Under the pieces are notes generated by a model. The model saw only the letters and a list, made by a program, of their open reading frames with translations, was not told the DNA's origin and searched no databases. The translations under genes were made by a program, and so were the position numbers. Shown piece by piece: positions 384 to 22,000 of a stretch of 34,171 bases of DNA. This DNA comes from a virus: the IMG/VR virus record IMGVR_UViG_3300044625_002158, positions 1 through 34,171 of that record; one strand, written 5' to 3'. Each line of letters opens with the position of its first letter. Positions within the stretch are counted from its first letter, which is position 1.

Positions 384-710
384 ATGTTTGGCTGGAAACG
401 ATTTCGACTGAACGAGCTCGGGGAGATGCCGGAATACATCGTGCAGATGTACGTCGACGCGTTCATGGAGGAGATTGCGCACCGCATCGCCTGCTACTTC
501 GACTACGACATCGATGAGCTCAACGCCCCGCAACTCTCCCTGCTGCTGCGTCTGCTGGCGCAGCTGGATGGCCGCGACGGCTTCACGCTGGAGCGGGCCT
601 GTCGCGAGGCGTTCGCGCGGGTGGTCATGGAGCACGGTGGGCCCGACGAGTTCGACCTGGATCACGGGCTGTTCTGGTGCGCCTGGCAGTTTTTGCCGAT
701 CGACCAGTGA
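384..710 (+). CDS. hypothetical protein, small acidic
   Basis: This 108-residue protein has no family I recognise. The start is well supported by GGAGGTGA just upstream of the ATG at 384. The sequence is acidic and probably all-helical, with many Glu/Asp and aromatic residues and no membrane segment, Cys cluster or nucleic-acid motif. Its stop overlaps the GTG start of the nuclease gene (GTGA at 707-710), so the two are translationally coupled. Its place between a methyltransferase and a nuclease suggests DNA metabolism, but the sequence itself does not show that. Confidence 0.75.
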   Translation: MFGWKRFRLNELGEMPEYIVQMYVDAFMEEIAHRIACYFDYDIDELNAPQLSLLLRLLAQLDGRDGFTLERACREAFARVVMEHGGPDEFDLDHGLFWCAWQFLPIDQ

Positions 711-1135
711 GCGAGGCCACGCTGGAACGAGCGTTCGTCCGCTGGTGCGAACGGCAAGGGGTTATGGCAATAAAGCTATCCGCACCGTTTCGCGGCTGGC
801 CCGACCGCACGGTGATCGGCCGCGGCCGCGTGGTCTTTGTCGAACTGAAAAGGCCCGGCGGGCGACGGTCGCCGCAGCAACAGTGGTGGATCGAGCGGCT
901 GAAATCGTGGGGTTTTATCGCGGGGTTCGCGGAGAGTCTGGACGAAGCCACGGCACTTGTAACGGAAGGATTGGCGATGAGCTCGGAGAAACTGAGACTG
1001 GATTTGGCCCACGCGGAGGACGCCGTCCTCCAAGCGACGAAACACGACATGCGGCCGGAGCAGCGGGAGAAGCTGCTGCACGCCTATCTGGCGGTGGTTA
1101 CCGTGGCCCGCGAGATTGCGGGGGAGAACGAATGA
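707..1135 (+). CDS. VRR-NUC domain nuclease
   Basis: This 142-residue protein starts at GTG 707, which overlaps the upstream stop. A longer frame from 677 would run into the upstream gene and is less likely. Residues 1-85 are a VRR-NUC (PD-(D/E)XK) fold. Visible features are WPD with Asp33, VELKRP with Glu46 and Lys48, and SPQQQWW after the active site, as is typical of phage stand-alone VRR-NUC proteins. The family includes structure-specific or nicking nucleases that often sit beside SNF2-type helicases, exactly as here. The last 52 residues are a charged helical tail beyond the usual domain length. An internal ATG at 977, preceded by GGAAGGA, could start that tail as a separate small protein. 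The stop overlaps the next start (ATGA). Confidence 0.88.
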   Translation: MSEATLERAFVRWCERQGVMAIKLSAPFRGWPDRTVIGRGRVVFVELKRPGGRRSPQQQWWIERLKSWGFIAGFAESLDEATALVTEGLAMSSEKLRLDLAHAEDAVLQATKHDMRPEQREKLLHAYLAVVTVAREIAGENE

Positions 1136-2541
1136 CCTTCGCGCCGCACGATTACCAGCAGGCCGCGATCGATTTCGCCGTCGAGCGGATCGGCGGCGGG
1201 GCCGAGGGCGCAGCCCTCTGGCTCGATCCCGGCCTCGGCAAGACCGCCATCACGCTGCGGGTGATCGAGTTGCTGCGGCAACGCGGACTGGCGAAACGGG
1301 TGCTGGTCGTCGCGCCGCTCCGCGTCATCTACTCCGTCTGGCCGGGTGAAATTCGCAAGTGGGGTTTTCCCTTCTCGACGAGCATCCTTCATGGCTCAGC
1401 GAACCAACGCCGCAAGGCATGGGAGACGCCCGCGGATATCCACCTGATCAATCCCGAGGGCATCCCGTGGCTGATGGAAGAGTTTCGCGCGAACGTCCGC
1501 CGGGCGGGCTGGGATTTCACGGTCCTCGACGAGAGCACCAAGTTCAAGAGTTGGTCGGCGGCGCGGACGAAGGCCCTGCGGGTGCTGCTGCCGAAACTGG
1601 GTGCGCGACTGGAGCTAACGGGCACGCCCGCGCCGAATCACTACGGCGACCTGTTCGCGCAACTCTACCTGCTCGACCGGGGCGAGGCCCTCGGCAAGAC
1701 GCTGACGAAATTCCGCGACCAGTTCTGCTACCTGGAGCGGGGCGGCCAGTTCAATCGCTGGGCCGTGCGCGCGGGCAGCGAAACCGAGATCGAAGCCCGC
1801 GTCGCGCCGCTGGTGCTGCGGATGAGTGCTCTCGACCACCTCGACATGCCGCCGCTGGTGCTCAATCCGATCTGGGTGGACCTGCCCGCCGGAATCCAGC
1901 GCGAGTACCGGCGGCTCGAACGCGAGATGTTCGCCATGTTTGAGTCCATGTTGACGCTGATGGCCGCGACCGGCGGCGGCAAGTACGCATTGTGCCGCTC
2001 GGTCGCCAACGGCGGAGCCTACTTCCTCGACGAGATGACGCAGGAACGTCGGGCCGGATATGTCCACGGGGCCAAGGTGGAAGCCGTGCAGGATCTGCTG
2101 GAGGACCTCGGGGGTAAGCCGCTGCTGTGCGCGTACCAGTATCACCATGACCGCGACCGACTGCTGAAGGCGTTCCCGGGAGCCCCGGTCATCAGCGGCG
2201 GCACGAGTCCGCAGGAGTCCACGCGGATCATCGACGCCTGGAACCGACGCGAGATTCCCATCCTGCTGGTGCAACCGCAGGCCATGAGCCACGGCGCGAA
2301 CATGCAGGCGGGCGGCAACGACATCTGCTGGTTCGGGCTCACCGATCAACCCGAGATCCATACCCAGTTCAACGCGCGGATCTGGCGACAGGGCGTCGCA
2401 GGCCAGGTGCGGATCCACTACATCCTCGCGCGGAACACGGTGGACGAAGCCGTCTACGCGCGACTGCAAGACAAGGACCGATCGCAGGCCGCGTTGCTGC
2501 GGGCGGTGGAAGAATACCGACGTCGCGTGGAGGGAGCCTGA
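1132..2541 (+). CDS. SNF2/DEAD-like superfamily 2 helicase
   Basis: This 469-residue superfamily 2 ATPase starts at ATG 1132, overlapping the nuclease stop as ATGA. The frame is open much further upstream, but that part is antisense-like sequence overlying other genes. Motif I is LDPGLGKTAI (residues 31-40), motif II is DEST (133-136), motif III is LTGTPAPN (162-169), and motif VI is within QFNARIWRQG (412-421). The order and the short length match phage SNF2-family helicases, which translocate on duplex DNA using ATP. The adjacent VRR-NUC gene suggests the two act together in replication fork processing or recombination; this pairing is common in phages. The stop codon shares its last base with the next ATG (TGATG). 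Confidence 0.9.
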   Translation: MTFAPHDYQQAAIDFAVERIGGGAEGAALWLDPGLGKTAITLRVIELLRQRGLAKRVLVVAPLRVIYSVWPGEIRKWGFPFSTSILHGSANQRRKAWETPADIHLINPEGIPWLMEEFRANVRRAGWDFTVLDESTKFKSWSAARTKALRVLLPKLGARLELTGTPAPNHYGDLFAQLYLLDRGEALGKTLTKFRDQFCYLERGGQFNRWAVRAGSETEIEARVAPLVLRMSALDHLDMPPLVLNPIWVDLPAGIQREYRRLEREMFAMFESMLTLMAATGGGKYALCRSVANGGAYFLDEMTQERRAGYVHGAKVEAVQDLLEDLGGKPLLCAYQYHHDRDRLLKAFPGAPVISGGTSPQESTRIIDAWNRREIPILLVQPQAMSHGANMQAGGNDICWFGLTDQPEIHTQFNARIWRQGVAGQVRIHYILARNTVDEAVYARLQDKDRSQAALLRAVEEYRRRVEGA

Positions 2542-3198: not shown

Positions 3199-4554
3199 AT
3201 GGACGTTAAAACGCTGGCCCGCGGCAAACTGGACGTCGCGAAGTGGCTCGCCGACAACGGCATCGAGGTGTATCGCGTGAAGCGACTGCCCGACGGCCGA
3301 ACCGCCTGGACTCTCAAAGAATGCCCCTTCAACGACGCGCATCGGGACGGGGATGCGGCGGTGATGCAGGCCGCCGACGGGACGCTCAGTGCGAGGTGCT
3401 TCCACGCGGGCTGCGCGGGACAGGGCTGGGCGGCGTTCCGCCAGCGGATTGGGCCGATTCGCCCCGGGTCGCATGTGCGTCAGCCGGGCCCGGGAGCGTC
3501 GCCTGTCGCCGCGGCCGACGATGGCTACGATCTGGAGTGGGTCAGCAACGCGGAGCTATTTGCCGATCAGACCGAGGTGCGTTTTCTCGTCGACAACGTC
3601 CTCGCCGCGGAACAGCCGTGCATTCTCGGCGGCGCGGGCAAGACCTTGAAGACGAGTCTCGCGGTGGATCTGGCGATATCGCTGGCGAGTGGCGACCCGT
3701 GGCTCGGGCGGTTTGCCGTGCCGCAGCCGGGGCCGGTGCTGTTTATCTCGGCCGAGTCGGGAAAACCCGTGCTGCGAGATGTGATGCGGGCGGTCTGCTG
3801 GGCGAAGCATGTCGATGCCCGCGACCTGCCCATCCAGTGGTCCTTCCGGCGACCGCTGCTGACGCAGGCGTCGCACTTGGCGTCGCTGCTGGACGCCATC
3901 GAGGAGCATCGGCCGAAGCTGGTGATTCTCGACCCGACGTATCTGCTGCTGATGGGCGGCGGCGATTCCGAGCGAACGAAAAACCTGTTCGCCATGGGGT
4001 CGGTGCTGGGCACGTTGAGCGACGCCGTCAGCCAGTCCGGGGCCACGATGTTGCTGTTGCACCATGTGACAAAGTCGATCGGCCGCAGCAAACGGGAGCC
4101 GATTTCGCTGGGTGACTTGGCCTACGCGGGTTTTAGCGAATGGGCCCGCCAGTGGATCCTCGTCAGCCGCTGGGAGGACTACACGCCGGGCACCGGCGAA
4201 CATGCGCTCCACGTTTCGGTCGGCGGATCCGCAGGCCACTCGGGTGCGTGGGTGGCCCGCGTCAACGAAGGGCGACCGACCGACCCGCTGATCGGGCGGC
4301 TCTGGCAGGTCGACCTGGAGGCCCCCGGACAACCGGCCGAACGGGCCGTGGAAAAAGACAGTGACGCTCGCGTGGCTCTCGCCATCCTGCGCAGCGAACC
4401 CAACGGCATGACGGCTACGGCCTTGCGGGAGGCAGGCGGCTGGAGCGGAGCCCGCATTAAAAAACTGCTGGAGGAGTTAACCGCGGCGTTCCACCTCCGC
4501 ACCGAAACGGTGGGTTCACGAACGGTCTATTTCGCGATGGGAGATGAGCTATGA
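3199..4554 (+). CDS. zinc-finger, RepA-like RecA-fold replicative helicase with winged-helix tail
   Basis: This 451-residue protein has three parts. Residues 40-80 form a zinc finger (Cys42, His48, Cys67, His69, Cys72) of the kind found between primase and helicase in prim-pol proteins. Residues 135-310 are a RecA/RepA-type ATPase with a phosphate loop GGAGKTLKTSLA (144-155), AESGK, and a Walker B strand LVILDPTYLLL. The last 65 residues look like a winged helix (GMTATALREAGGWSGARIKK). RepA-type proteins form hexamers that unwind DNA at replication origins. The adjacent AEP gene is the expected partner. GAGGTAGAG lies before ATG 3199. The phosphate loop departs from the strict GxxxxGK[ST] spacing, as in the AAA_25 subgroup. 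Confidence 0.85.
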   Translation: MDVKTLARGKLDVAKWLADNGIEVYRVKRLPDGRTAWTLKECPFNDAHRDGDAAVMQAADGTLSARCFHAGCAGQGWAAFRQRIGPIRPGSHVRQPGPGASPVAAADDGYDLEWVSNAELFADQTEVRFLVDNVLAAEQPCILGGAGKTLKTSLAVDLAISLASGDPWLGRFAVPQPGPVLFISAESGKPVLRDVMRAVCWAKHVDARDLPIQWSFRRPLLTQASHLASLLDAIEEHRPKLVILDPTYLLLMGGGDSERTKNLFAMGSVLGTLSDAVSQSGATMLLLHHVTKSIGRSKREPISLGDLAYAGFSEWARQWILVSRWEDYTPGTGEHALHVSVGGSAGHSGAWVARVNEGRPTDPLIGRLWQVDLEAPGQPAERAVEKDSDARVALAILRSEPNGMTATALREAGGWSGARIKKLLEELTAAFHLRTETVGSRTVYFAMGDEL

Positions 4555-5260: not shown

Positions 5261-5607
5261 ACCGTGGCGGGCAATGCGCAGGGCACGGTGACCGTCTCGG
5301 TGTAGACCGTGTAGCGGTCGCCGTCCGCCTCGACGACGCGAATGCGTAGTTGGTATTTGCCCTCCGGCAGCGTGGCCGTGGCCGAGGGCAGCAGCGTCAG
5401 CAGGCATTTGCCCAGAGCGGGATTGCCGAGGGTTACTTGGGTGGCGTTCACGCTGACGGTGTGCTGCGTGCCATCCTCGCAATTACCGATCACGATCTCG
5501 ACAGCGGACGCCGCAGCCAAATTATAGAACCCGTTGCCGGAGAGCGGATCTTTAATTTCAAGAGAGATGTGCCGCGTGTCACCCGGGTACAGTATCCTCA
5601 GGCCCAT
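5257..5607 (-). CDS. putative phage virion protein, Ig-like/BppU-N-like
   Basis: This 116-residue protein has a clear start (GGGGAG before ATG at 5607). The opening GLRILYPGDTRHISLEIKD and the alternating beta-strand pattern resemble the N-terminal domain of baseplate upper proteins and related small Ig-like phage proteins. It is the last gene of the late operon and overlaps the end of the LamG protein gene by 10 bases, so it probably accompanies the tail adhesins. The resemblance is judged by eye, and a simple hypothetical structural protein is the safer label. Confidence 0.7.
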   Translation of the reverse strand: MGLRILYPGDTRHISLEIKDPLSGNGFYNLAAASAVEIVIGNCEDGTQHTVSVNATQVTLGNPALGKCLLTLLPSATATLPEGKYQLRIRVVEADGDRYTVYTETVTVPCALPATV

Positions 5608-7199
5608 ATTTTTCTCCCCTTTAGGTTTGCGGTGCCCACAGCCCCCGTCAGCGTAGCGGTCCCCGTATGCCCCACTAACAACACATCGGCCGTAGTGGCT
5701 AGGGCATAGGCTGAGCTAGAGACGGGTGGAGTGGTCGCCACGCACATACCTACCACCGTCACCGAGGCTAGTGCGGTGGCAGAGGTATCCGACAGTGCAA
5801 CCGCCGCAGCACCTGCCACGGTGCCTGCGCCAACGGTCCCAACAGCTACTGCCTCCGATGCCGCCAACGCGACGGAAACGGAGCCATTAGTCTGACAGAT
5901 ACCGCTGCCGCTCCCCGTCGTCTCGCCCGAAGTCGATCCGCAACTGCCCGTGATGCTTACTGCGCCGCTGGCCGATGCAGTGGTAGCTGCGGATTGTACC
6001 GCTGCACTTCCGCTGACCGAGCCAATGTGATTCCCCGAGGCCGACGCGATTACGTCGCCAAGCGTAGCCGCTGCACTTCCACCGATGGTCTGCGCACCAT
6101 TAGCGGAGGCTGCGGTCGCTGCCAGCCCAACAGCGAGGGCTCCCGTGGGCCCGTCTGTATGCAGTCCTTCGGCAGCAGCGACCACGTCCCCGAGCGTAGC
6201 CGCTGCACTTCCGCTGATGCTTAACGCGCCGGAGGCTGACGCACTAACGTCCCCGAGTGTCGCCGCGGCCGTGCCGCTGAACGTCTGCGTACCGGCGGCC
6301 GATCCGGTCGCCGCTGCAAGCGTGGTACTGCTCGTGCCTGGAATCGTCTGCGTGCCGCTGGCGGTGCTGGTCGCTGCTGCGAGCGTTGGTGACACTGTGC
6401 CCGCGAAGGTCTGCGTGCCGCTGGCCGTGGAGGTCGCTGCCGCCAGCGTTGACGAGCCACTGCCCGTGGTGCCGGTAGTCAATACCCGAACGAGCGTTCG
6501 ACGACGCGGAGGGCGCAGGCAGTAGCCCGGCCCCCCGGAGTACAACTCGCGCACCTCCTCTTCAGTGATCGCGCGTCCCCAGGTGCGGACGTCTGCAATC
6601 TCGTTTGTCCACGCGCGCGACGTCCGCGTATCGTAGCCAATGCGGGCCGTTCCGGCAGCGTGCGCAAGTCCAGTAGCACTGCCCGCCCAGGCACTTCCGG
6701 TACTAACGCCGTTAATCCAAATGTCGCCCGTGATATGCGCGCTAATAGAAATAGCCACATGATACCAGTCGTCAACGACCAGATCCACGGGACCACTGGC
6801 TCGCAGCGTGCGATTAACGGTCGTGCCGTTGCCATAGCGTAGCAGGAAGACGTCCTTGTTGACTGAGCCGGCGAATTGCGCACCGACGGACCAGCCCGAA
6901 AACGTCGTGCCGGTGTCTGTGTCGCTGTGAAAAATTTCGCGACCGCTCGATCCAGCTCCAATATATTTTGCCCACGCAGCGACCGAAAACGGAAAACCAG
7001 TGTGCAGGTGCTTGCTGTAAGCGAGCGTCGCTCCCGTCGATCCGCTGTAGTTTGCCGACCAGCCCCGGCTCCACGAAGCCAACGTCACGCCACCAGTCAT
7101 GGTCGCGTGCTGCCTGTACGGCGAGTAGTCGGTCACGAGCCGCCCGCTCGGGCCGAGCGCTGTGACCCACGCTCCTGTCAGTCCTTCGTTGACGCTCAC
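5598..7199 (-). CDS. LamG-domain adhesin with 21-residue repeats
   Basis: This 533-residue protein starts at GTG 7199, with AGGTG upstream and directly abutting the previous stop. Residues 1-222 are a LamG (concanavalin-like) domain: the typical beginning of GAW, then YSGSTGA, FSVAAWAKY, VDDWYHVAISI and EIADVRTWGRAITEEEVRELY. Such domains bind sugars or surface proteins. Residues 243-486 are Ala/Ser/Thr/Gly-rich repeats with a period of about 21 residues (units starting at 251, 272, 293, 314 and 335). The organisation suits a virion adhesin with a stalk of repeats. It belongs to the terminal adhesin block of the late operon. Confidence 0.85.
   Translation of the reverse strand: MSVNEGLTGAWVTALGPSGRLVTDYSPYRQHATMTGGVTLASWSRGWSANYSGSTGATLAYSKHLHTGFPFSVAAWAKYIGAGSSGREIFHSDTDTGTTFSGWSVGAQFAGSVNKDVFLLRYGNGTTVNRTLRASGPVDLVVDDWYHVAISISAHITGDIWINGVSTGSAWAGSATGLAHAAGTARIGYDTRTSRAWTNEIADVRTWGRAITEEEVRELYSGGPGYCLRPPRRRTLVRVLTTGTTGSGSSTLAAATSTASGTQTFAGTVSPTLAAATSTASGTQTIPGTSSTTLAAATGSAAGTQTFSGTAAATLGDVSASASGALSISGSAAATLGDVVAAAEGLHTDGPTGALAVGLAATAASANGAQTIGGSAAATLGDVIASASGNHIGSVSGSAAVQSAATTASASGAVSITGSCGSTSGETTGSGSGICQTNGSVSVALAASEAVAVGTVGAGTVAGAAAVALSDTSATALASVTVVGMCVATTPPVSSSAYALATTADVLLVGHTGTATLTGAVGTANLKGRKIWA
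5742..6473 (-). repeat. Coding repeats, 21-codon period, in the LamG adhesin
   Basis: The translated sequence repeats units such as TLAAATSTASGTQTFAGT, then TLAAATSTASGTQTIPGT, then variants with TLGDVSASASG. The first five units are exactly 21 codons apart and later ones drift. The DNA copies are similar but differ at many third positions, so the array is not a recent slippage product. Repeats of this kind form extended fibres in phage tail proteins. Confidence 0.85.
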
Positions 7200-9469: not shown

Positions 9470-9865
9470 TTAGTTGGCTTCGGTCAGGACGAAACTGGTG
9501 ATCGAAACCGTAGCGTTGGCCTGCAAGATATTGGTCGAGAGGTTCAGATCACTATTGCTAGTGCCGACGCTGCCTTGGATGACGACCGTGTTATCCGATT
9601 TGAGCACCCGAAAAAAAGATGCCGTTCCAGAAGTAGTGACGGTCGCGCTCGGGATTGAATTGACCTGCAAGACCCCGTTGGTGGTCGACGCCGCAAAAGC
9701 CGTCGTCATCGTCAGTGTTGCGAGAACCGCATTGCCGCTCAACGCGGTTCCCGCGTTGGTCGGCGGTGTGCCATCGTAAAGAACGATCTTGGCGTTTGCG
9801 CCGACTAACGAATCGATCGCGTTGGCGCGATTCTGCTTCAAGGTGGAGGTGAACGAGATTGCCAT
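9470..9865 (-). CDS. phage structural protein, small beta-rich family
   Basis: This 131-residue protein has AGGAGG upstream of ATG 9865. It opens with ISFTSTLKQNRANAIDSLVG followed by AKIVLYDGTPPTNAGTALSG, a pattern seen in a widespread set of small phage virion proteins of unknown exact role. The rest is Ser/Thr/Val-rich beta structure ending in SITSFVLTEAN. It lies just downstream of the cysteine peptidase and is probably part of the tail or its decorations. Confidence 0.75.
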   Translation of the reverse strand: MAISFTSTLKQNRANAIDSLVGANAKIVLYDGTPPTNAGTALSGNAVLATLTMTTAFAASTTNGVLQVNSIPSATVTTSGTASFFRVLKSDNTVVIQGSVGTSNSDLNLSTNILQANATVSITSFVLTEAN

Positions 9866-9876
9866 TAGATGGCCTC

Positions 9877-10824
9877 CTATGTGCCAAACCCAAGTTCCCA
9901 GTCAATTGCCCGCACGGGCCAATCCTCAGTCTGCCCGTGGGCGAAAACCTCGGTGCTGGACGATTTCAGGATGTCCTTCATCGTGCTTTCCCGAATCCAG
10001 AAACTACCCCGCACGCCCTTCGGCGCAAGATACGGACAGTCCCCGTGAAAGGTCGGGCCCCACTGATTGTCGATCAGGTAGACGCGACCGTGGGCCGGAT
10101 GCGTCATGTAGCCGCCGATGCTCATCTGATGAGCCCAGGAGTCGTTCCACGCACCGAGCAGCAGGCCCTGCACGACGCGCGCCCGCGTGCCGAACATCGA
10201 CGCCATGGTGACGCCGTAGCCCTGTACCAGAGCATCTTCGAGTTCCGCGGTGGTGCGAATGCGCACCGTGTACGTTACCTGCCGCTCGTTCGCAGCCGAC
10301 GCCAGTTGGGCCTCGGGGATGGGCCAGTGCTTCGGCACGCTAAAGTCGAGTTCGATTTTGCTTGTCCACCACAGCCAGCCGTCCTTCTCGGTCGGTGGCG
10401 GCAGGAGCGAATTGTCGGTGGCGAGCATGCCGAATTCGACGCCCGCCCGCGCCATGGCCGCGCCGAAACTGCCGCCGCCCCGGCTGTTGAGCCCGGCCAG
10501 GCGACGCGAGTAACCCCAGGTCGCGAAGGCAAAGAGATTCTTCACCTCCTCGCGGGTGCGTCGAACGACGATGTCGCCGCAGATCGCCTGTGCCAACGAC
10601 CGGGCCCAGGAAACGCCCACGCACGAGCCCTCCTTTTGCCCGATGCGGGGCAGCAGTTTCCCGGTCGCCTTACTCTCTAGCTCGAACAGCAGGGCCGCGT
10701 CCGGCCGGTCCGCTGCTCCGCGATTGACGTCGGAAAATCGAGGCGTTCGCTCGTCGTAGTTGGCAGCGAGCCGCACCTGGAACGGATTGCGCTGGTCGGG
10801 AGGCAGATAGCCCTGCGGATTCAT
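9877..10824 (-). CDS. papain-like (C1-type) cysteine peptidase
   Basis: This 315-residue protein carries papain-fold signatures in order: Gln63 and Cys68 in IGQKEGSCVGVSWA, His232 in SWAHQMSIGGYM, and Asn253 in IDNQWG, matching the papain oxyanion Gln, nucleophile Cys, His and Asn. Between them lies ELEDALVQGYGVTMASM, as in bacterial C1 peptidases. It should therefore cleave peptide bonds (family C1 knowledge; the specific substrate is unknown). There is no signal peptide or membrane segment, so it would be cytosolic until released. The start has AGGGGGTG upstream and overlaps the stop of the anchored protein gene (ATGA). Its place next to two membrane-protein genes is that of an endolysin. 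It could equally process a virion protein. Confidence 0.85.
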   Translation of the reverse strand: MNPQGYLPPDQRNPFQVRLAANYDERTPRFSDVNRGAADRPDAALLFELESKATGKLLPRIGQKEGSCVGVSWARSLAQAICGDIVVRRTREEVKNLFAFATWGYSRRLAGLNSRGGGSFGAAMARAGVEFGMLATDNSLLPPPTEKDGWLWWTSKIELDFSVPKHWPIPEAQLASAANERQVTYTVRIRTTAELEDALVQGYGVTMASMFGTRARVVQGLLLGAWNDSWAHQMSIGGYMTHPAHGRVYLIDNQWGPTFHGDCPYLAPKGVRGSFWIRESTMKDILKSSSTEVFAHGQTEDWPVRAIDWELGFGT

Positions 10825-11501
10825 CGGGCACCCCCTGCCGTTTTAAGGCCCCTGGCGACGTCGCTGAAGACCTGCGCGGCCGAGGGGACATCCAACACCC
10901 GGGTATTGAGTTGCTCGCGTAGCCACGCCCCAAAGGCTTGCCAACGGGCATCGCCGACAGCAATCCCCGCCGTGGCCTTCTTCACGGCCGCATGCACGGC
11001 CGTCAGGTCGGTGAGCGTCGTCCCGATCTGGGGCAGCACCGATTCGATGGCCGCCGCGTATTTCGCCGCCACCGCCGGTTGGCCGACGGCATACGCCCGG
11101 TCGAAGACCTCGCCTGCAAACCCCTCGGGCCGCTCGGGCCGGGGCGTTGGGGCCGGGGCATCGCCGACGGTGACGACCCAGGTGGTCGACTCAAACCGCT
11201 TCGCATCGAAATCAACCAGGTACGAGAGGAACACCAGTTCGCCGCTGGTGGCGTAGGTCACGAGCACGCCGCCGCTCTCGTAGGTGCGATAGGGCACCGC
11301 CAGCGGGGACAACGGTTGCCACTGGCAGACGTCGGCCCCGTCGGTCTGGTCGAGACGCAGTTCGATCAGGCCGGGAGCGACGGTCACCCGACGCTCGGCC
11401 CCACGCGCCTCCAGGGCAGCGAGCAACGCCCCGACGACAATGGCGATGATCGCCAGCGCGTGTAGCTGCGACAGTAGTCTAGGGCTGCGTTTTGCGGCCA
11501 T
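10821..11501 (-). CDS. exported or membrane-anchored protein, lysis-cluster candidate
   Basis: This 226-residue protein has a hydrophobic segment at residues 14-34 (LHALAIIAIVVGALLAAL), followed by a possible cleavage site near ARGA. The rest is a soluble domain, with proline/arginine-rich linker residues PAPTPRPERPEG in the middle and a helical C-terminal half. This implies export, with about 190 residues outside the membrane. The gene overlaps the next upstream gene by 23 bases and the peptidase gene by 4 bases. A spanin-like or lysis accessory role is suggested only by position. Confidence 0.7.
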   Translation of the reverse strand: MAAKRSPRLLSQLHALAIIAIVVGALLAALEARGAERRVTVAPGLIELRLDQTDGADVCQWQPLSPLAVPYRTYESGGVLVTYATSGELVFLSYLVDFDAKRFESTTWVVTVGDAPAPTPRPERPEGFAGEVFDRAYAVGQPAVAAKYAAAIESVLPQIGTTLTDLTAVHAAVKKATAGIAVGDARWQAFGAWLREQLNTRVLDVPSAAQVFSDVARGLKTAGGAR

Positions 11502-11796
11502 GCGCCACCTGATCCAATCGCGTGCTTTGCAGTTTTTGCTCGTCCTTGATCGCCTCCAGCGTCGCGGCGACGCTCGCCAGCAACCGCGAGTGCTCCTTCA
11601 GCGTTTCGTCGAGCCGATCGACGAACGTCACCGACCGAGTCACCAGCGGCGTGATGACGCGGTCGGTCAACGCATCCAGCGATCGTGCGAGATAGTTGGC
11701 GATGCGCAGCGTCCCCCATGCGATGAAAAAGAGCAGCAACGTTGGCAGGCCAAAATCCCGCAGCAGAATACCGATTTGTTCGAGCGATATAGACAT
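11479..11796 (-). CDS. putative holin-like single-pass membrane protein
   Basis: The start ATG at 11796 follows the previous stop by 2 bases, with GGGGGTG upstream; a longer frame to 12072 overlaps the neighbour and is rejected. The 105-residue product has one hydrophobic segment at residues 14-30 (GLPTLLLFFIAWGTLRIA), then a long helical, coiled-coil-like tail, the arrangement of several small phage holins. The polar tail would sit in the cytoplasm. Together with the anchored protein and peptidase downstream it forms a plausible lysis module. A tail or head assembly role cannot be excluded. Confidence 0.65.
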   Translation of the reverse strand: MSISLEQIGILLRDFGLPTLLLFFIAWGTLRIANYLARSLDALTDRVITPLVTRSVTFVDRLDETLKEHSRLLASVAATLEAIKDEQKLQSTRLDQVAHGRKTQP

Positions 11797-11798
11797 GG

Positions 11799-12113
11799 TC
11801 ACCCCCGCTTGGTCAGTTGCTCCAGCACGATCTTGACCAGGATCGGCAGCAGAATCGGCAGCAGCGGCCCTTCGATCGCAGGCGTATCCTCGCCTGCCAC
11901 CTCCAGCAACTCCGACGAGACTTCGTAGAGCCGAGCCCCGTCGGCCATCTCGGGATCGTCGTCGTCCATGGGCTCGCCGAACGGCGTCCGTACCTCGTAG
12001 TCGACCCACGCCTGCGCGATAGCGGCGAGCAGTTCGGCCGCGTCCTTCCGGGTAACAGACCCGGATTTCCACGCCGCGGTAAACTCGGTGATCTCGCGGA
12101 TCAGATCATTCAT
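11799..12113 (-). CDS. hypothetical small protein
   Basis: The start ATG at 12113 overlaps the stop of the beta-helix protein (ATGA); the frame is open to 12236 but has no support there. The 104-residue product has a helical, acidic N-terminal part with EPMDDDDPEMADG and ends in a hydrophobic, amphipathic tail (LLPILLPILVKIVLEQL). That tail could associate with membrane. It sits directly ahead of the holin-like gene, so a lysis-regulating role is possible; no family recognised. Confidence 0.65.
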   Translation of the reverse strand: MNDLIREITEFTAAWKSGSVTRKDAAELLAAIAQAWVDYEVRTPFGEPMDDDDPEMADGARLYEVSSELLEVAGEDTPAIEGPLLPILLPILVKIVLEQLTKRG

Positions 12114-14518
12114 CAGAGCACCCTTACTTGCAGATAATTGGTGGCCGCAGAGCCGGTGTAGTTGGCAGCGTAGAACACCGGAAGATTCCCTGCGGCGGTT
12201 ATCGAGGAGACGTATTTGCCGACCGAGAGATCCCAATAAAGGGCCCGACCGTCGGCCGTGATGCTGTAGCTGCCCGAAACCGCATCGCCGGGCAATTCAA
12301 GAATATCGCCCTTCGTCGCGACCAGCAGGTGGTCCTCGGTCAGCGCGTCGAGCAGGATGTAACCTGAGTAGACCGAAGCAGCGTCGGCGTCGTCCCACGG
12401 TTCCCAGTTCGTATCCAGCGGCTTGTGGCGATCCGCCGCCGAACGCCCGTGAGCGGGGGCATGCAGGACAAGATATTTCGGCCAGCCGTTTTGGTGGAGG
12501 TATCGCGTCTCTAGCTCGACGACGGTTGCCAGGGGCACCTGCCGAACGAATTGCCACGACACAGGCGTTTCGCCGTTCCCTGCAAACCCGGTCACGCTAT
12601 GCGTCGGCATAGTTGCTTGCACCGTGCCACTGGTGGCCGCGCGATACTCCCGACCGTTCGCCCAGCGAAGTTGCCCCGCCGTAATTGTCTCGCCGGAGTA
12701 CCACACGGGGTGACGCAGGCCCTGATTATACTGGCCGTAGCCCGGAACGACGTTTCCAGAGATGACGACCTGCGACGCGGCAACCGTGTTGCTGATACCG
12801 ACGGCCATGCGATTAGAGTCGCGAGGCATCTTGTTGTTAAGGATGCAGACGGTGCCGCCCGTCGCAAGGGTTTCGACATACACCGCCATCGAGGGGACTA
12901 GCGGCGAGTTCGTGTAGAGATATCCGACATCGCCAAAATCATTGTGGGTGATTTCAATGCCGGTGCCCGCCTGAATGTGAATGCCAGGGCCCAGAAAATT
13001 AATGAACTTGTTACCAGTGAACCGAACACCCGATACCCCGGGATTTGCGCTGGTGCCGCTGGCGATCGTGCAACGCCAGCCCCCCTCAAAGACATTGTCG
13101 GCGACTAGGCAGTTCGGGCCGTGGATCGTGCAGGGGCGAGTAGACTGGTGCGCTTTTACCGTGTTGCCCCGCACCGTCACGCGGCGACCGCGGATATTAA
13201 ACCCGACATTCTCTGCGATGCCGGAGCCGCCCGCAGGAATGATGGCGACGTTATTCTCGAACACCCCGCGTAACGCATCCGCGTGCGTATCGTACAGCGA
13301 TGCGCCGGTCCACGTCGTCGACGTCGTCTGCTGCCCGTTATAGGAGGCGGTGCATCCTGATACCTTAAAATTGCGATTGGTGCCGTACAGGTAGAGGCCC
13401 ACCGTATCGCTCGTGCCTCGGTACTCCCAGGTCAGGCTCCCATCAGACACGGTCCCGCCGATGGCCTGGGTGGTGTACGCGGGGGCAGTGCTGCCGGATA
13501 CGCCCGCAGCACTAGCTCGCCATACGCGGTAGTAGGTGGTATTGCCGATCACGACGGTGCCGCTGAGGCGGTAGTCACCGGCCACCACTGATTCGCCAGC
13601 GGTCCACGGATAGTGCCGCTCCAGCGACCCGGTCGTGTAAACGTGCCGCACGGCGTCAAAGGTACATTGGCTCGTGTGGGTTCGATTACAGATCGCTTCC
13701 ACGATCCCGTAGATCGAGGCGATCTCGGTGTTGGGGTTTTCGAGCGCACCGAGGCGGCACCCAACCGTTCGGACGTTGTAACAAAATCGATAACCCAAGG
13801 CCCCGGGCGACGGGTAAGTGAACCAGCAGTCGTAAAGCTCTAGGTCTTCGCAGCCGTTAAACAGCAGGAAATTACCGGAGGCTGACTCCCCGGCCGCAAA
13901 CTGTCCTGTCGGCAGTTTACGGGCGCGCAGCCCGTCAATCCGCACCCCGCGGATCGTGTTGATCTTCGCGATAAACGGGTTCAACAGCATCCCGTCGTCG
14001 ATGAAATCGGCGAAGGTCCAGGTATCAGTCGTGCCCGTCACCAACCGCTCAATGCGGTGAAGCTCCATGGGAATGTAACGCACCTCGTACCCCGCCTGAG
14101 GCGTAATGTCCGGGGCGGTTATCGCCGAGTCGGACCAGACCACCACCAGGTCACCCAACGAGACGCCGAGAGCCGTTTGCAGACTGCTGCTGCGCAGCGT
14201 ACTGCTTTTCGAGGGGAGATTGGAGGTCGTCGAGTTGGCCGTTACGGGGTAGCTGCGCGTGAGCCAGGGAGTCGGATCGGTGCCGTATTTGATCTGCGCC
14301 TGTTCCCGGGTGCGGACCAATTCGGCGCCGGGCATAAACCGCATGGAAACCGGCGCGGTGATCGTGATGATCGCGTTGACGTAGACCGAACCCGAGATCT
14401 CGAACGTGACGGGTTTATTGGCGGCATTAGCCACGGCAACGGCCGCTTGCAATCGCGAGGTATCGATCGCGGCATTGCCGACACCGTTAATCTTCATCAC
14501 GTTGGTGCGTTGAATCAT
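12113..14518 (-). CDS. parallel beta-helix tailspike-like protein
   Basis: This 801-residue protein starts at ATG 14518, overlapping the stop of the large fibre gene; an open frame to 14638 is a shadow of the fibre. After about 60 residues it has repeating short beta strands and turns of a right-handed parallel beta-helix, with runs such as VSGCTASYNG, RVTVRGNTVKAH, SGVRFTGNKFINF and VVISGNVVPGY. Phage tailspikes of this fold often cleave host polysaccharides, but I cannot pick out catalytic residues. The last 65 residues (including RALYWDLSVGKYV) match the end of the adjacent 934-residue fibre in pattern. It is probably a receptor-binding adhesin or depolymerase. Confidence 0.85.
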   Translation of the reverse strand: MIQRTNVMKINGVGNAAIDTSRLQAAVAVANAANKPVTFEISGSVYVNAIITITAPVSMRFMPGAELVRTREQAQIKYGTDPTPWLTRSYPVTANSTTSNLPSKSSTLRSSSLQTALGVSLGDLVVVWSDSAITAPDITPQAGYEVRYIPMELHRIERLVTGTTDTWTFADFIDDGMLLNPFIAKINTIRGVRIDGLRARKLPTGQFAAGESASGNFLLFNGCEDLELYDCWFTYPSPGALGYRFCYNVRTVGCRLGALENPNTEIASIYGIVEAICNRTHTSQCTFDAVRHVYTTGSLERHYPWTAGESVVAGDYRLSGTVVIGNTTYYRVWRASAAGVSGSTAPAYTTQAIGGTVSDGSLTWEYRGTSDTVGLYLYGTNRNFKVSGCTASYNGQQTTSTTWTGASLYDTHADALRGVFENNVAIIPAGGSGIAENVGFNIRGRRVTVRGNTVKAHQSTRPCTIHGPNCLVADNVFEGGWRCTIASGTSANPGVSGVRFTGNKFINFLGPGIHIQAGTGIEITHNDFGDVGYLYTNSPLVPSMAVYVETLATGGTVCILNNKMPRDSNRMAVGISNTVAASQVVISGNVVPGYGQYNQGLRHPVWYSGETITAGQLRWANGREYRAATSGTVQATMPTHSVTGFAGNGETPVSWQFVRQVPLATVVELETRYLHQNGWPKYLVLHAPAHGRSAADRHKPLDTNWEPWDDADAASVYSGYILLDALTEDHLLVATKGDILELPGDAVSGSYSITADGRALYWDLSVGKYVSSITAAGNLPVFYAANYTGSAATNYLQVRVL

Positions 14519-17319
14519 GGCAGCTTCCCGTAGCCGAGGACCGTGACGTTGTAGGTGAGGGCCGTGCTGTTGTACGAGTTGACCAGGACGCCCGGCGGGT
14601 TGGTGGGGTCCGCGTCGGCTGGCTTGGTCTTGACCCACCCGCTCACGGAAAGATCCCAGTAAAGGAATCGCGACTCGGTGGTGTAGTTGTAGGAGACGGC
14701 GATACGAGCCGCGGGGAGCGACATGGTATCGCCCTCTTTGGCGTAAGTGAAATTGTTGGCGTCTGAGACGCTGACGATGACTCCGGTAAAGAAATGTTCC
14801 GGGTCCGTATCGTCGAGAAGTTCGGCGACATACACGGCTTTGCCAATGTCGTTGCTCGTCAACCCGTGATTCGGGAAATACATCGTCGCGTAGGGAGTGG
14901 ACGACCCCGACTGCGACGCCGTCACCCAGTTGAGTTGCCCGCTACCGTTGATCTGGAGCGTCTGCCCGTCGGTGCCTGCGCCGGTGGGAAACGTGTACGC
15001 TTCGTTGAAGGTGACCGCGCCCGTTGGAGCGATGCCGATTCGCGTCGCGCCGTCGGTCACCAAGTGCATGGCGCGGGCCGTGCCCCCGGAGCCTCGCTCG
15101 GTGCCGACGCGGAACACATCGGGGCTGCCCCTCCAGTCGAGGACGCCTCGCTCGTAGGCGGTGCCCGGGTCCGCAGCGGTGCCGGTGGTTGGCAGATTGT
15201 TCGTCGCGGCCTTGTTATAGACGGCGAATTTCTGCGCGTTGGCCCCGTCGCGTTGGCCTGCGGTGCCTGCGGCATCGTAGTAAATGCCCGTGCCGTCGGA
15301 CCAAGAGAACCCTGCTCCCGCCGTCGTATCCGCATAGACGCCGTGACGGGCCTTGACGTAGCCCCGCTTGCCGAGGCGAAAGACCTCGGTGCCACTGACG
15401 TTGGCGGTGAACAGCGACGTCGCCGTCGCCGAACTGGTATCGGTCACCGAGATGAAAATGGGTGCCAGCGGAGCCACTAACCCGGTGTTCCAGGTCTGCG
15501 TAATCCCGACGGCGTTCTCGCTGTAGACGCTGCCGGTCTGCGTCGGGCCGGTGATCTTGATCGACCCGTGGATGGCGTTGCTGCCGAGCGAGAGTGCCTT
15601 GTTGCTCGTGTTGGCGGTATCGCCAAACGTGAACGCGGGCGAGGCACCGAACGCCCCCGCGTCGTTGTACTGGACCTGCGTCGTCGACCCTGCGGGCGTG
15701 CCGCCGGTGCCCGAGACCGTGGCCCAACTCAGCTGACCACCACTGTTGGTCTGGAGCACCTGCCCGTTAGTACCCGCGGTCGTGGGGAACGTATACGCCG
15801 AATTAAAAGCTATAGCCCCGCTAAGGGTGATCTCCAGTCGCGTCACGTCATCGGTTTGGAAAATCAGGCCTCGGGTGGTTCCGCCGTTAATGCCCTGGGT
15901 AGTACGGATTCTGGCCGTGTCGTTAACCCAACCGAGCTCGACTCGCTCATAGTTAGTGTCGTTGGTGTAGGTCTTGTACACCGCCAGGTTGTTGGGACTG
16001 AGGGCATTGCGCAAGTCGAGCCGGTTCGGAGAGGTCGAGTACAGCCGGGCCCCACCGCTGCTCGTTGCACCGATGGTGGCCGAGCGGAAATTGATGTCGG
16101 CGTCGTCATCGACCGACCAGGTTCCCGACGCCACGACAATGTCACCGTAGTCCCCGTCGGGGAGCGTGGCCGACGTATTTACCTCGACCCACTGGTTCAG
16201 GCCGTTCAGGTAGGTCGTGGACGACCGCGTGCCGGTGCCCAGTCGCAGCACGTTGATCGTGCCGCTGACGATTTGGCTCGCGTCGTGCGTATGCGAGGCG
16301 AGCGCAAACGTCTCGCGAGGTTCGACGGCGGCAGTCCCCAGACCCAGGGTGATACGCGCCTCGGCCGCGGTGGCGTCGTCCAGCAGCGTCGCAGTGAACG
16401 GCGTGAAGGTCACCTCGGCGACGTTGGCGGGCAGCGTCGCCGCGTTGCCTAGCAGCTTGTACGGGCCGACCTGCTGGATCTTGCCGTATTCGACGGCGTT
16501 GCTGACGATCGTCCAGACGTTTTGCGTCACGACGTTGATGTCGTCCTTGACGCCCGTGGCGATCTGGGCGGAATCAATCTCAACCCACTGGTTTAGGCCG
16601 TTCAGGTAGGTCGTGGACGATCGGGTGCCTGTACCCAGTCGCAGCACGTTGATTGTGCCGCTGACGATGTCGGCAGCGTCGTGCGTATGCACCTCGGGAG
16701 CGTAAGGCGGCGGGGTGACAATCCCCAGGGTATCGCGAGCCTGCTGCGCGGTCGTATCGTCCAGCAGCGTCGAAATGAACGAGGTAAACGGCACCTCGGC
16801 GACCGGACCCGTGGAACCCGTGGCGTTGCCCAGCAGTTTCCAGGAACCGACGTCCTGGATCTTGGCGTAGCTGACGGCCTTGGAGTCGATCGACCAGGAG
16901 CCGAACGTATTGACCGTGATATCGCCTTTGTCGCCGGTGGTCAGGTTGCAGGTGCCACCGCCACCACCGCCGCCGCCGCCGCTCGTCAGCAGGCCGCTGG
17001 GATTGATCTCCACCGCCACGGTGGTGGCACCGGACGGGCTCGCTTCGCGAACTCGCCACGGCCCGGAGCCCGACTCAAATCCGCCGGTCCCGTAGACCAG
17101 TTGATCGCCCACGGCAAACGTGGTGGAGGGGTTGATCTTCAGGCCGCGGAAGACGCCGCTGACGCGGAATACGCCGGAGGTGTTCGCGCGGACGTCGAGC
17201 GAGGGCACGCCCCAGTAGCCGCTCGACAGTTCCACGGGCGTCCCCGCGGTGACGTTCACGGTCGGCGTAAATTCGACGTGCTCGTCGCCTTCATGGCTGA
17301 AGCGGGCGATTACGGGCAT
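14515..17319 (-). CDS. large fibre protein with N-terminal DUF2190-like domain
   Basis: This 934-residue protein has AAGGAG before ATG 17319. Residues 1-108 resemble DUF2190, the fold of this phage's own small decoration protein: shared pattern F..G....(Y/F)TP..(D/N)V.AG..V, then GV and RVSG. A polyglycine run at residues 114-122 makes a hinge. Residues 125-388 are two tandem copies of a 132-residue module, and the rest is fibre sequence with recurring YTFPTxAGTxGQxLQ segments. The C-terminal 65 residues include FLYWDLSVSGWV, similar to the end of the beta-helix protein. An adhesin is certain in kind. Whether it sits on the tail or the head is open, and the N-terminal domain argues for the head. 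Confidence 0.85.
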   Translation of the reverse strand: MPVIARFSHEGDEHVEFTPTVNVTAGTPVELSSGYWGVPSLDVRANTSGVFRVSGVFRGLKINPSTTFAVGDQLVYGTGGFESGSGPWRVREASPSGATTVAVEINPSGLLTSGGGGGGGGGTCNLTTGDKGDITVNTFGSWSIDSKAVSYAKIQDVGSWKLLGNATGSTGPVAEVPFTSFISTLLDDTTAQQARDTLGIVTPPPYAPEVHTHDAADIVSGTINVLRLGTGTRSSTTYLNGLNQWVEIDSAQIATGVKDDINVVTQNVWTIVSNAVEYGKIQQVGPYKLLGNAATLPANVAEVTFTPFTATLLDDATAAEARITLGLGTAAVEPRETFALASHTHDASQIVSGTINVLRLGTGTRSSTTYLNGLNQWVEVNTSATLPDGDYGDIVVASGTWSVDDDADINFRSATIGATSSGGARLYSTSPNRLDLRNALSPNNLAVYKTYTNDTNYERVELGWVNDTARIRTTQGINGGTTRGLIFQTDDVTRLEITLSGAIAFNSAYTFPTTAGTNGQVLQTNSGGQLSWATVSGTGGTPAGSTTQVQYNDAGAFGASPAFTFGDTANTSNKALSLGSNAIHGSIKITGPTQTGSVYSENAVGITQTWNTGLVAPLAPIFISVTDTSSATATSLFTANVSGTEVFRLGKRGYVKARHGVYADTTAGAGFSWSDGTGIYYDAAGTAGQRDGANAQKFAVYNKAATNNLPTTGTAADPGTAYERGVLDWRGSPDVFRVGTERGSGGTARAMHLVTDGATRIGIAPTGAVTFNEAYTFPTGAGTDGQTLQINGSGQLNWVTASQSGSSTPYATMYFPNHGLTSNDIGKAVYVAELLDDTDPEHFFTGVIVSVSDANNFTYAKEGDTMSLPAARIAVSYNYTTESRFLYWDLSVSGWVKTKPADADPTNPPGVLVNSYNSTALTYNVTVLGYGKLP
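16156..16947 (-). repeat. Tandem duplication of a 132-codon fibre module
   Basis: Two adjacent copies, each 132 codons long, lie in the fibre gene. Both contain YxKIQxVGxxKLLGNA and the near-identical stretch VSGTINVLRLGTGTRSSTTY plus its continuation LNGLNQWVE (residues 219-247 and 351-379). At DNA level this stretch (about 16579-16665 and 16183-16269) is nearly identical with mainly synonymous differences, while the rest is more diverged. That fits an older duplication with locally maintained identity. Confidence 0.85.
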
Positions 17320-18163: not shown

Positions 18164-19014
18164 CAGACCCCCAGCCCCAGCGTGGCGAAGTTGCCCGACT
18201 CAAACACCTGCGCGACGTACACGCCCTGCGCCCCTGCGGCCAGGTCCGCAGCGTTGGTATCGACCTGCGTTTTCCACTGCACCCAGATGTAGTCCCAGCC
18301 CCGCACCACCGTGCCCGACGGGATCTGGATCCCGCCGATGGTCATCGGCAGGGCTGGGTTCTTTTTCACCGCGAAATGGTAGGTAATCTCGCTATCGCCG
18401 CGGGACGAGATCGATCCCTCGGCGCCCTTGAACAGCACCTCTCCCGCAGCGCGCCCCCGGAACGGAGCGTTGTTGAGCTTGCCCGCCAAGTTCTCGACGA
18501 TCGCCAGATACGACTGCGTCATGTCGGTGTAGTTTTTGGTGACGGTGATGTCGAACTCCTGCACGGGCATCGGGACGTCCGCCCCTTCGACCGTCGCACC
18601 CTGACCGTCCTGCGCCGTCACATTGAGGAACACGCCGTGATTCGGCGCGTTCGTGCCGAACTTCTGCTGTGAGAGAGCGTAGTAGCGTTTCGCGTTTTCG
18701 GTGTTCAGCTTGAAGGCGTACTTGATTTCGCCTTCCCGCGCGGGCGGGGGATCCCGCCTGCTGTAACTCACCGTGACCCGGAAGCGATCCGGCGTTTTCT
18801 GCTCCAGGCTGATGCCCGATCGGGGCATGCCGTCCCAGCGCAGCGGCGTGTTGTCCTCGGCGTAGTCGAGAATCGCGATATCACCCGAATCGTCGTTCGG
18901 GTTAGCGACGGGCGCGTTCAGACGGGCCAGATAGATTACGGTCCGATCATCGCTGCTGCCGCTGATGCCGCCGTCGATTTCGCTGACGCGGTCGAATTGG
19001 ATCACGTTGGGCAT
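18163..19014 (-). CDS. putative tail-tip/distal tail protein
   Basis: This 283-residue protein immediately follows the tape measure gene; its start shares one base with the tape measure... neighbourhood order on this strand is tape measure, then this gene (TAATG overlap at 19014). It is beta-rich, with GDIAILDYAEDNTPLRWDG and a regular Asp/Gly/Thr pattern, and has no membrane span. In siphoviruses the first gene after the tape measure encodes the distal tail or baseplate hub, and its length fits that. Sequence alone does not prove the family. Confidence 0.7.
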   Translation of the reverse strand: MPNVIQFDRVSEIDGGISGSSDDRTVIYLARLNAPVANPNDDSGDIAILDYAEDNTPLRWDGMPRSGISLEQKTPDRFRVTVSYSRRDPPPAREGEIKYAFKLNTENAKRYYALSQQKFGTNAPNHGVFLNVTAQDGQGATVEGADVPMPVQEFDITVTKNYTDMTQSYLAIVENLAGKLNNAPFRGRAAGEVLFKGAEGSISSRGDSEITYHFAVKKNPALPMTIGGIQIPSGTVVRGWDYIWVQWKTQVDTNAADLAAGAQGVYVAQVFESGNFATLGLGV

Positions 19015-22000
19015 TAGGGGTTTACTCCAGCCGCGGCCTTGGCTGCGGGGCGTTTGTCGGCTTTCTCTTGCAACTGCCGAATCCGACGAAGCTCCCGCAA
19101 CTGATTCTCTTGGACGTCCGGGGCGAGGCCGAACGCCGCCACATCGGCGAAGGCCGCGCTGTTGGATCGGGAGACGGCCTTGGCTGTGTCGCCGCTAATC
19201 AGACCGGCTTTTACCATCATCTCTTGCAACTTGGTTTGCCATCCGCCGAGAGCACTTGCCCCTGGTGCGTCGGCATTCTCTTGCGCAGCCTTGCGCGCCT
19301 CTTCCACCTTTTGCTTTAGCTCTAGCTGTGCTTTGCTTTCGGCCATCATCGGCGCCATCAACTCGTCAAACGATTTGTCGGGGTTGATGCTGGCCTGACG
19401 GTCTGCGGCTTTTTTGCGGATCGCTTCTTCGCGACTGGCCTTCTCCGCCATGATTCTCTCGGAGTCTTTCTTGCGAGCCTTTTCGCGCGACAAAATGCGC
19501 TCCGACATCGCTAGTTCCCGAGACTCCTTCGCGGCAGCGTTCTCGCTATCGATCCTGGCAACCTCGGAGCCGTAGTCGACACTGTCGTCGACGAGTGAGC
19601 GGGCCAGAATGGCGGCACGCTGCAAAATACCTAAGAACGAGTCCCAGAGCCCGATCAGGAAATTGACGGTGACTTCCCATGCATCCGCGATCAAATCGAT
19701 CACCTGTAGCACCGTGCTTTGGCCTGAATCCCACAGGGCGTCCCAATTAGATGAGGTGCTTTCGACACCGGATAGCATCGAACTAACAAGCGCGTCCCAG
19801 AGAGGTTTGACAAGGGCGATCATCGAACTCCACGCCCCGCCGAACGTATCGACGAACCAATCGACCGCTACCATTAACTCCACCCAGCCGTTTGAAAACC
19901 GCACGCTGAGCTCCGTCCACAGTTGGTTAGCGACGGTAAGCAGATAGACACGCCAAGCATCCCACGATTCGGAAATGGCGTTGTAGCCTTTCTGAAATTC
20001 CAGTTTGATGAAGCTCCACGCGATCTCAAACGCAAGTCCAAGATCGCCCGCAGAGATTGCGTCAACCAATCCCCCCAAGGCGGTTTTTCCGTCCTCCAGT
20101 AATGTCTTAAAACCATCGCTGAGAACGCTGAAGGCGTTATCTGCCGCGCCGCCCAACGACGCAAATATGTTGCTAAGGTAGCCACCAATCGTGGAGAACG
20201 CCGCTTGGACGTATGGCTTTAGCTTGTAGAACGCCACGCCCAGCAAGGCGATGACGCCCACAATCGCCAGTACCGGCGCGAACACCGACGCGAAACTGCT
20301 GGCGATGAAACCAAGTACAGACCCGACAACGCCCACCAGCGACCCCATGACCGAGAGCAGCGCGACGAACGCTTTCAGGACGATGCCGCCGATGATGCCC
20401 CCCAGGTTCTTTAGCTGGGTGCCCACGACAACAACCAGTCCACGCATCGCCCCGAAGGCCGCAACGGCCGATTGGCCGATGCGAGCCAGGATCACGGGCA
20501 TCAGGCGAAGCGTTCGGAACATGGCGTAGCCCAGTTCGTAGGCAACCCTCTCAACGACGTTGATCAGCATTAGCAAGCCGCCTGCGATGGGCCGAACCAA
20601 TGCCTGCACGACCGAACCTGCCACGGCGGCCATGACGCCCACGATGGATCGCACCGCAGTCGCCAGCGAGGCGACAAAGGGCCCGATAGCCGCCACGCCG
20701 GAGGCGAACATCTGCGCGATCTTCGCCCCTACGACGGCTGCACCGGCGGCGACGCGGCCGATCACCGCGCCCAGCCCCGCCCGCACGGCAACAATCATCA
20801 CGCCAACGCCTCTTACGATTGCCGCTGCCGCCCGGCCGATGATGGCGGCCTGCACTGCGAAGAGACGCCCCAGCATGTCGAGGCCCGCTGCTCCAATGGC
20901 GACCGGGATCAGCAGCAGATCGTGAGCCAGGATCAGCAACGCTTTCCCGGCCAGCAGCGCGGCGGGGATCAGCACGCCCGCTGCTCGAATCGCCGCCATG
21001 CCGAGGGCACCGAACGCCCGGACGTAGGAAGCCGCCGCCATGGTCGCCGCCGCCGCACCCGTGATTAGACTGCGCGTCAGGCCCATCAACGCTTGCTGTA
21101 GGGTGAATAGCCGTCCCGCCAACCCCGTCGCCATCACGCCGACGCGGACAAACTTGGAGAACCCCGCAGCGAGCGTCGTGATGCCGATAACGGTCAGGTC
21201 GACGACGTTGAGCAGAAATGACATACCGGAGGCCAGCACGCGGAATGGCGTGTTTAGCAGTATCACCGTCCCCGAAAGCAGTTTGAGGTTTGCGGCGAAC
21301 ACGGTGAACAGGACGCCGGTACCCAGCATGGCCGCCGATAAGCCCGTCAGCGATATCAGCAGCAACGCCAAGCCTTGGATGACGAGCGGGTTAGCGTTGG
21401 CAAAATCAGTAACCGCCACGGCCATCAGTGTGAACGCGTCCACGACTATTTTGCCGGGACCCTTCATCGCTGCACCTAATGCAGCGTAAGCCATCTTCAC
21501 CGCACCGATCAACCCGCGGAATGCGGAGGACAGCGTATCCACCTCGCGCCTGGCTTGACCAATGGCTCCTGACCTCGCCAACGCTTCAAAAATAATCTTT
21601 ATGCGCGTCAGAATGCGCTCTTGCTGCGATGCTACGGAGTTGGTCCGCTGCATCGCCTCGGCCATTTCTTCCATTTCCTTGTCCAGGTTGGCCTTGCGAA
21701 TGTCGGCACCGATGCGCTGCACAGGGATCACCATGCCTGCCAACCCCGACAGCATGCGGTCCGTCGCCTCTCCTGCGTCGCGAATAGCATCGTCGAAAGC
21801 GAGCATGTCCTGTGTCGCTTCGGTCAACATTTTGGACAGGTCAAACGCCGACCGCGCGTCAAACCCCGCCCCGAGCAGCACCGACTGAAACGTCGTGATC
21901 TCGTCTTTGAGTTCGTTCACCGACTGGTTAACGTCTTTACCGAGAACCTGCGCAAACTTCTCGGCTTCGCCCGCAAGGTCACCGAACACCTGTTTGAACC

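Follow-up and report, generated by a model that had tools for sequence, protein, structure and literature searches.

A candidate late lysis cassette with a stand-alone papain-fold peptidase and a secreted partner in uncultured phages

How does a phage open its host when no conventional endolysin can be recognised among its genes? This question is raised by IMG/VR record IMGVR_UViG_3300044625_002158, a viral sequence of 34,171 bases (class 'linear', completeness not recorded), which was analysed over its whole length and is referred to here as the window. On its minus strand, positions 9877-12113 encode a papain-fold cysteine peptidase together with a Sec-exported partner and two small proteins with hydrophobic segments. 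On the basis of sequence and structure models we give about even odds (a probability of roughly 0.5) that these genes form a late cassette for lysis or envelope opening, with the peptidase as its catalytic part in the usual place of the endolysin; at those odds, a peptidase in the endolysin's stead is the best single explanation of the locus. In its favour are the papain fold, the invariant catalytic tetrad, conservation of the cassette in seven contigs, positions typical of lysis genes and the lack of a muralytic Pfam domain, as well as the occurrence of the peptidase and its partner in unrelated packaging lineages, the separate head protease encoded in the window and in records G001 and G002, and the precedents among phage lysis proteins described below.

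Relatives of the peptidase were gathered stepwise from IMG/VR. An AlphaFold2 model based on five homologous sequences (predicted local distance difference test score, pLDDT, 76; predicted template modelling score, pTM, 0.84) superseded an earlier, poor model based on three (pLDDT 40). The top Foldseek match of the newer model in the PDB was xylellain (3ois; expectation value, E, 3.2e-9), all 50 matches listed were papain-type enzymes, and VIA-align superposed the model on xylellain with a Z score of 20.9 and a root-mean-square deviation of 2.8 over 235 residues. The model has the papain fold expected of a clan CA, C1-type cysteine peptidase, which bears out the papain-like reading given in a preliminary description of the locus made from the sequence alone. 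Across seven homologues (27-57% identity to the window protein) invariance is limited to 36 of the 315 residues of the window protein, and Gln63, Cys68, His232 and Asn253, which that description had singled out at these positions, are all among them (probability by chance 1.5e-4). The residues follow the order Gln (oxyanion hole)-Cys-His-Asn of C1-type enzymes, with Gln and Cys five residues apart as compared with six in papain; in the model, a helix begins at Cys68, and His232 and Asn253 lie in or beside strands. Because the papain fold is combined with four invariant catalytic residues, the protein is very probably catalytically active, as a C1-like cysteine peptidase of papain type.

The family is nevertheless outside Pfam Peptidase_C1 (PF00112) as that profile is drawn, searches with E limits of 1 and 10 having given no match. 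The window peptidase matched nothing in Pfam, PHROGs or NCBIfam. Its sole sequence match in the PDB, over the His and Asn motifs, was weak (plant papain dionain, E 1.2), and hhalign gave a partial alignment of the family with a three-sequence C1 set (E 9e-4, probability 23%). Searches with tblastn found no match to the window peptidase or its most divergent homologue (L024:6693-7580, 27% identity) in 50,697 GenBank phage records, nor to the L001 peptidase in plasmids; scans of genome contigs with two- and three-sequence profiles gave no cellular or prophage relative, which is weak evidence given the few patterns used. The L024 protein weakly matched phrog_27083 (function unassigned, E 0.0038), which may extend the family.

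Immediately upstream, and overlapping the peptidase gene by 4 nucleotides (ATGA) in the window, lies the gene of the Sec-exported partner. From our own reading of the alignment, this protein consists of a signal peptide, a beta-rich segment of ~75 amino acids (aa), a Pro-rich linker and a helical C-terminus. It had been described as exported or anchored: its homologues in L001 and L008 have clear signal peptides, which upholds export, and lack a second transmembrane (TM) segment, which speaks against anchoring. The L024 homologue ends in a Cys pair. No match to the L001 protein was found in GenBank phages by tblastn, and profile searches of the partner against the PDB returned nothing convincing. 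In all seven contigs the start codon of the peptidase gene either overlaps the stop codon of the partner gene or directly adjoins it (ATGA, GTGA or TGATG), an arrangement that suggests translational coupling of the two genes. The peptidase itself has no signal peptide, as first described.

The seven contigs are the window virus and at least six others (Table 1), and the conserved cluster is larger than the three genes of the preliminary description, which had missed a conserved fourth gene and a fifth, encoding a small exported Cys-containing protein. A protein of ~100 aa with a hydrophobic C-terminus, the signal-peptide protein and the peptidase follow one another in fixed order in 7/7 contigs. 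A protein with one TM segment and a coil is present in six of the seven (the window, L001, L008, L013, L014 and L024); its gene sits between the ~100-aa and exported genes in the window, L001 and L008, and also adjoins the cassette in L024 and L013, in the latter after the peptidase. In the window, L001, L008 and L023 the cassette is set in the tail module; in L024 it comes after the early genes and before the terminase, and in L013 it is near the contig start, before the terminase. Both settings are typical of lysis genes, the region before the terminase being a usual place for them.

Three packaging lineages carry the cassette. L013 and L001 share 66% identity in the peptidase, while no similarity could be detected between their portals or between their terminases; between the window and L024, by comparison, portals are 42% and peptidases 27% identical. 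The peptidase/partner pair thus appears to move INDEPENDENTLY of virion modules, and, because it is common to phages with undetectably related terminases and portals, the sequence comparison indicates that the cassette is not a capsid or portal accessory and is not bound to one virion type. Capsid maturation as the main role was rejected in view of these mosaic lineages and the separate head maturation proteases. The alternative of virion protein maturation raised in the preliminary description is weakened accordingly, since in the window that protease is encoded elsewhere, fused to the major capsid protein.

A conventional lysin was sought in the same contigs. The Pfam scan of predicted proteins from all seven (~187 kb, each contig possibly incomplete) detected no muralytic domain, in agreement with the initial statement that the window holds no endolysin motif, and PHROG scans of five contigs gave no lysin among the 25 most frequent families listed per set. 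The peptidase and its tested homologues likewise had no match to muralytic families of Pfam, PHROG or NCBIfam, so they lack the muralytic domain of a typical endolysin. What they share with endolysins is the setting, that is, a predicted cytoplasmic product of a late cassette with a holin-like gene in the window and five other contigs. A CAP (SCP-like) domain exported protein (L015:10740-11132), in the record G004 that also carries the L014 cassette, is a possible alternative envelope or host-interaction protein.

The remaining cassette genes encode proteins of membrane or exported type. The one-TM protein, whose gene overlaps that of the exported partner by 23 nucleotides in the window (both overlaps had been reported correctly), would be holin-like or i-spanin-like by shape only, its TM-coil layout being compatible with an i-spanin; holin matches were all sub-threshold, for example Holin_BhlA for the L024 homologue (E 0.2). 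The start codon of the 104-aa protein gene overlaps the stop codon of the beta-helix gene. Small exported Cys-containing proteins are encoded directly 3' of the peptidase in L001, L008, L013 and L014, and elsewhere in L026; those with a signal peptide and mostly with Cys include L026:11535-11783, L027:644-901 and L013:2084-2293 and are not always beside the peptidase. Read from the sequence, none has a consensus lipobox, so an o-spanin role was rejected and no spanin pair is recognisable.

In the lysis scheme that we favour, the peptidase would build up in the cytoplasm during late expression, until the one-TM protein, the 104-aa protein or both permeabilise the inner membrane at lysis time. 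Once released, it would cut peptide bonds of the envelope, either in stem and cross-link peptides of peptidoglycan or in structural envelope proteins, while the exported partner, already beyond the membrane, might aid by substrate binding, enzyme activation or restraint. Peptidoglycan peptides are a somewhat more likely target than envelope proteins, because a papain that cut proteins freely in the cytoplasm would harm the cell before the burst and because known lysis enzymes of papain fold cut sacculus peptides. A protein target is possible, since Cwp84, a C1 enzyme of the same fold, cleaves an S-layer protein (PMC4414356). The more radical version, lysis without any muralytic enzyme, in which a protein-cutting papain guided by its secreted partner dismantles a load-bearing protein layer or envelope protein tethers, seems to us decidedly unlikely. 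The preliminary description had reasoned from a proteinaceous wall of planctomycete type; this argument is rejected, because Planctomycetes have a lysozyme-sensitive peptidoglycan sacculus (PMC4432640) and no host evidence was obtained. Nor does a peptidase at the endolysin's place imply a protein-only wall, as papain-fold lysis enzymes usually cut murein or pseudomurein peptides.

Several observations weigh against a lysis cassette. The peptidase has no cell-wall-binding domain, and a papain active in the cytoplasm with no evident propeptide would put the phage at risk. The one-TM protein has no holin-family match above threshold in Pfam or PHROG, its gene lies ~10 kb away from the peptidase in L014, and none was found in G008, the record that holds L023, at the hydropathy cut-off used. 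Moreover, as contig completeness is not established, an endolysin may lie outside the window or the other contigs, or may be too short or divergent for Pfam.

Several other functions were weighed for this protein. A host-directed cytoplasmic or periplasmic protease, dispensable for lysis and serving in takeover, counter-defence, superinfection exclusion or the processing of its own partner or of the small Cys-containing protein, would suit a single-domain peptidase that is cytoplasmic by sequence and has no wall-binding module, that is tightly coupled to a secreted protein of unassigned role, and that usually has small exported Cys-containing proteins nearby. In most contigs, however, the cassette belongs to the late genes, away from the early region, and the other cassette proteins are of membrane or exported type, which points to the envelope; we regard a host-directed protease as somewhat unlikely. 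A virion-associated or tail-processing peptidase, which would either mature a tail or fibre protein or travel in the particle to open the host surface on entry, is unlikely. It would account for the surroundings of the cassette in the window, L001, L008 and L023, where the neighbouring genes encode tail-fibre, beta-helix and LamG proteins, and the missing signal peptide fits a virion protein as well as a cytoplasmic one; yet in L013 and L024 the cassette precedes the terminase, apart from the tail assembly genes, the constant coupling to a Sec-exported protein is no feature of virions, the pair moves between packaging lineages that are unrelated to one another, and the head protease is encoded separately. 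Inactive papain-fold proteins do exist, an example being DUF1175, described as inactive and peptidoglycan-binding (PMC10318531), and the protein could in principle be a structural or binding scaffold of this kind; since seven homologues, some as distant as 27% identity, all keep the four catalytic residues, we consider this highly improbable.

Among known systems, xylellain and Cwp84 (4ci7) match the fold of the peptidase along almost the entire chain (Z 20.9 and 16.7) and share its Gln-Cys-His-Asn order; unlike these bacterial C1 peptidases, it is phage-borne, has no signal peptide and no Pfam Peptidase_C1 match, and has Gln and Cys five residues apart. Among phage proteins, the N5 (C39-like) domain of mycobacteriophage Lysin A is likewise a papain-family peptidase in a lysis protein, an assignment by prediction only (PMC3314691), and differs in being part of Lysin A, whereas the peptidase described here stands alone. 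In BFVD, our model has among its structural neighbours phage proteins annotated as N-acetylmuramidase, peptidoglycan-binding-like and Lysin A, the two Lysin A proteins being weak matches (E 4e-3 and 5e-3). The isolated Gordonia phage Aleemily has a papain-related 'cysteine protease', gp29 (L018:6584-7261), encoded between lysin A and holin/lysin B, with overlapping genes as here, and the His and Asn motifs of gp29 align with our family, although hhalign similarity is very weak (a probability of 1.2% for gp29 by itself and of 23% for a profile of three sequences); Aleemily differs in also carrying lysin A (C39 and amidase) and lysin B. No mention of papain or C39 turned up in the Gordonia lysis-cassette paper. 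PeiW and PeiP of methanogen viruses are also viral cysteine peptidases, with a triad that has been compared with papain (PMC2989375), and lyse hosts with a wall other than ordinary peptidoglycan; they differ in their Cys-His-Asp triad, pseudomurein-binding repeats and separate family (Pfam 12386). CHAP and NlpC/P60 enzymes, common phage lysins that cut wall peptides, belong to the papain-like superfamily (PMC10318531), whereas our peptidase has no profile match to them and its best structural matches are of papain C1 type. No direct precedent for papain-type lysins in similar phages was found in the literature searched.

In the window, early replication genes are on the plus strand and a long late operon is on the minus strand. 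Transcription runs through the 104-aa protein, the one-TM protein, the exported partner, the peptidase, a structural protein and the small exported Cys-containing protein, and past the cassette the late operon goes on with further structural genes.

Table 1. Window features, with positions in the window, and contigs carrying the cassette, with IMG/VR records
Feature	Position or record	Strand	Remarks
Helicase	475-2541	+	Early replication gene
Primase/helicase-like	3199-4554	+	Early replication gene
Terminase	30876-33179	-	Late operon
Lambda-type portal	27930-29483	-	Late operon
Major capsid protein fused to head maturation protease	25895-28042	-	Late operon
Tape measure	19014-22442	-	Late operon
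Tail fibre and beta-helix proteins	12113-17319	-	Late operon, just before cassette
104-aa protein, hydrophobic C-terminus (...GPLLPILLPILVKIVLEQL...)	11799-12113	-	Upstream of exported partner, kept in 7/7 contigs
One-TM protein with C-terminal coil, 105 aa	11479-11796	-	Single hydrophobic segment, then coil-like tail
Sec-exported partner, 226 aa	10821-11501	-	Signal peptide; no Pfam, PHROG or NCBIfam match
Papain-fold cysteine peptidase, 315 aa	9877-10824	-	ATG start, single domain; structure model and homologue alignment
Structural protein	9470-9865	-	Between peptidase and small exported Cys-containing protein
Small exported Cys-containing protein, 68 aa	9250-9456	-	Signal-peptide-type small protein, no lipobox
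L001	IMGVR 3300043571_000203		Cassette contig
L008	IMGVR 3300020044_008468		Cassette contig
L013	IMGVR 3300031857_003099		Cassette contig
L014	IMGVR 3300030329_004222		Cassette contig (record G004)
L023	IMGVR 3300047457_000907		Cassette contig (record G008)
L024	IMGVR 3300035670_001184		Cassette contig

Further features were observed outside the cassette. The right end of the window (33593-34171) is filled with dense, GC-rich tandem repeats, with units such as GCCGTCGCCTGTCCAGCCCGAGCCGTGGCCCGATG and three perfect 35-bp copies at 34067-34171; they may mark a genome terminus, act as a regulatory array or explain why the assembly stops there. A structural protein at 5598-7199 has a LamG domain and an extended series of degenerate repeats such as TLAAATSTASGTQTF, and Pfam scans found LamG proteins in related contigs as well. 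In L024, an exported protein (L024:8332-8967) beside a LuxR-type regulator ends, as judged by eye, in a PEP-CTERM-like sorting signal (EPSAMALAALGFVVVFGVLRDAQRR), which suggests that the host of that phage has an exosortase system.

Papain-fold peptidases in lysis enzymes are already known from LysA N5, PeiW/PeiP, CHAP and NlpC/P60, as is a cysteine protease gene in a Gordonia phage cassette. The novelty lies in a papain-type family that stands alone, had not been recognised before, is coupled to a secreted partner and is common to unrelated phage backbones; the family is unseen by Pfam, PHROGs and NCBIfam, yet the coupled pair of genes turns up in several packaging lineages. If the lysis reading is true, a group of uncultured phages would open their hosts by means of a stand-alone papain and a secreted partner, not by a standard endolysin. 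Lysis in these phages would then have a mechanism open to experiment, the 'endolysin' that such contigs seem to lack could be annotated, and there would be a clue to the envelope chemistry of the hosts.
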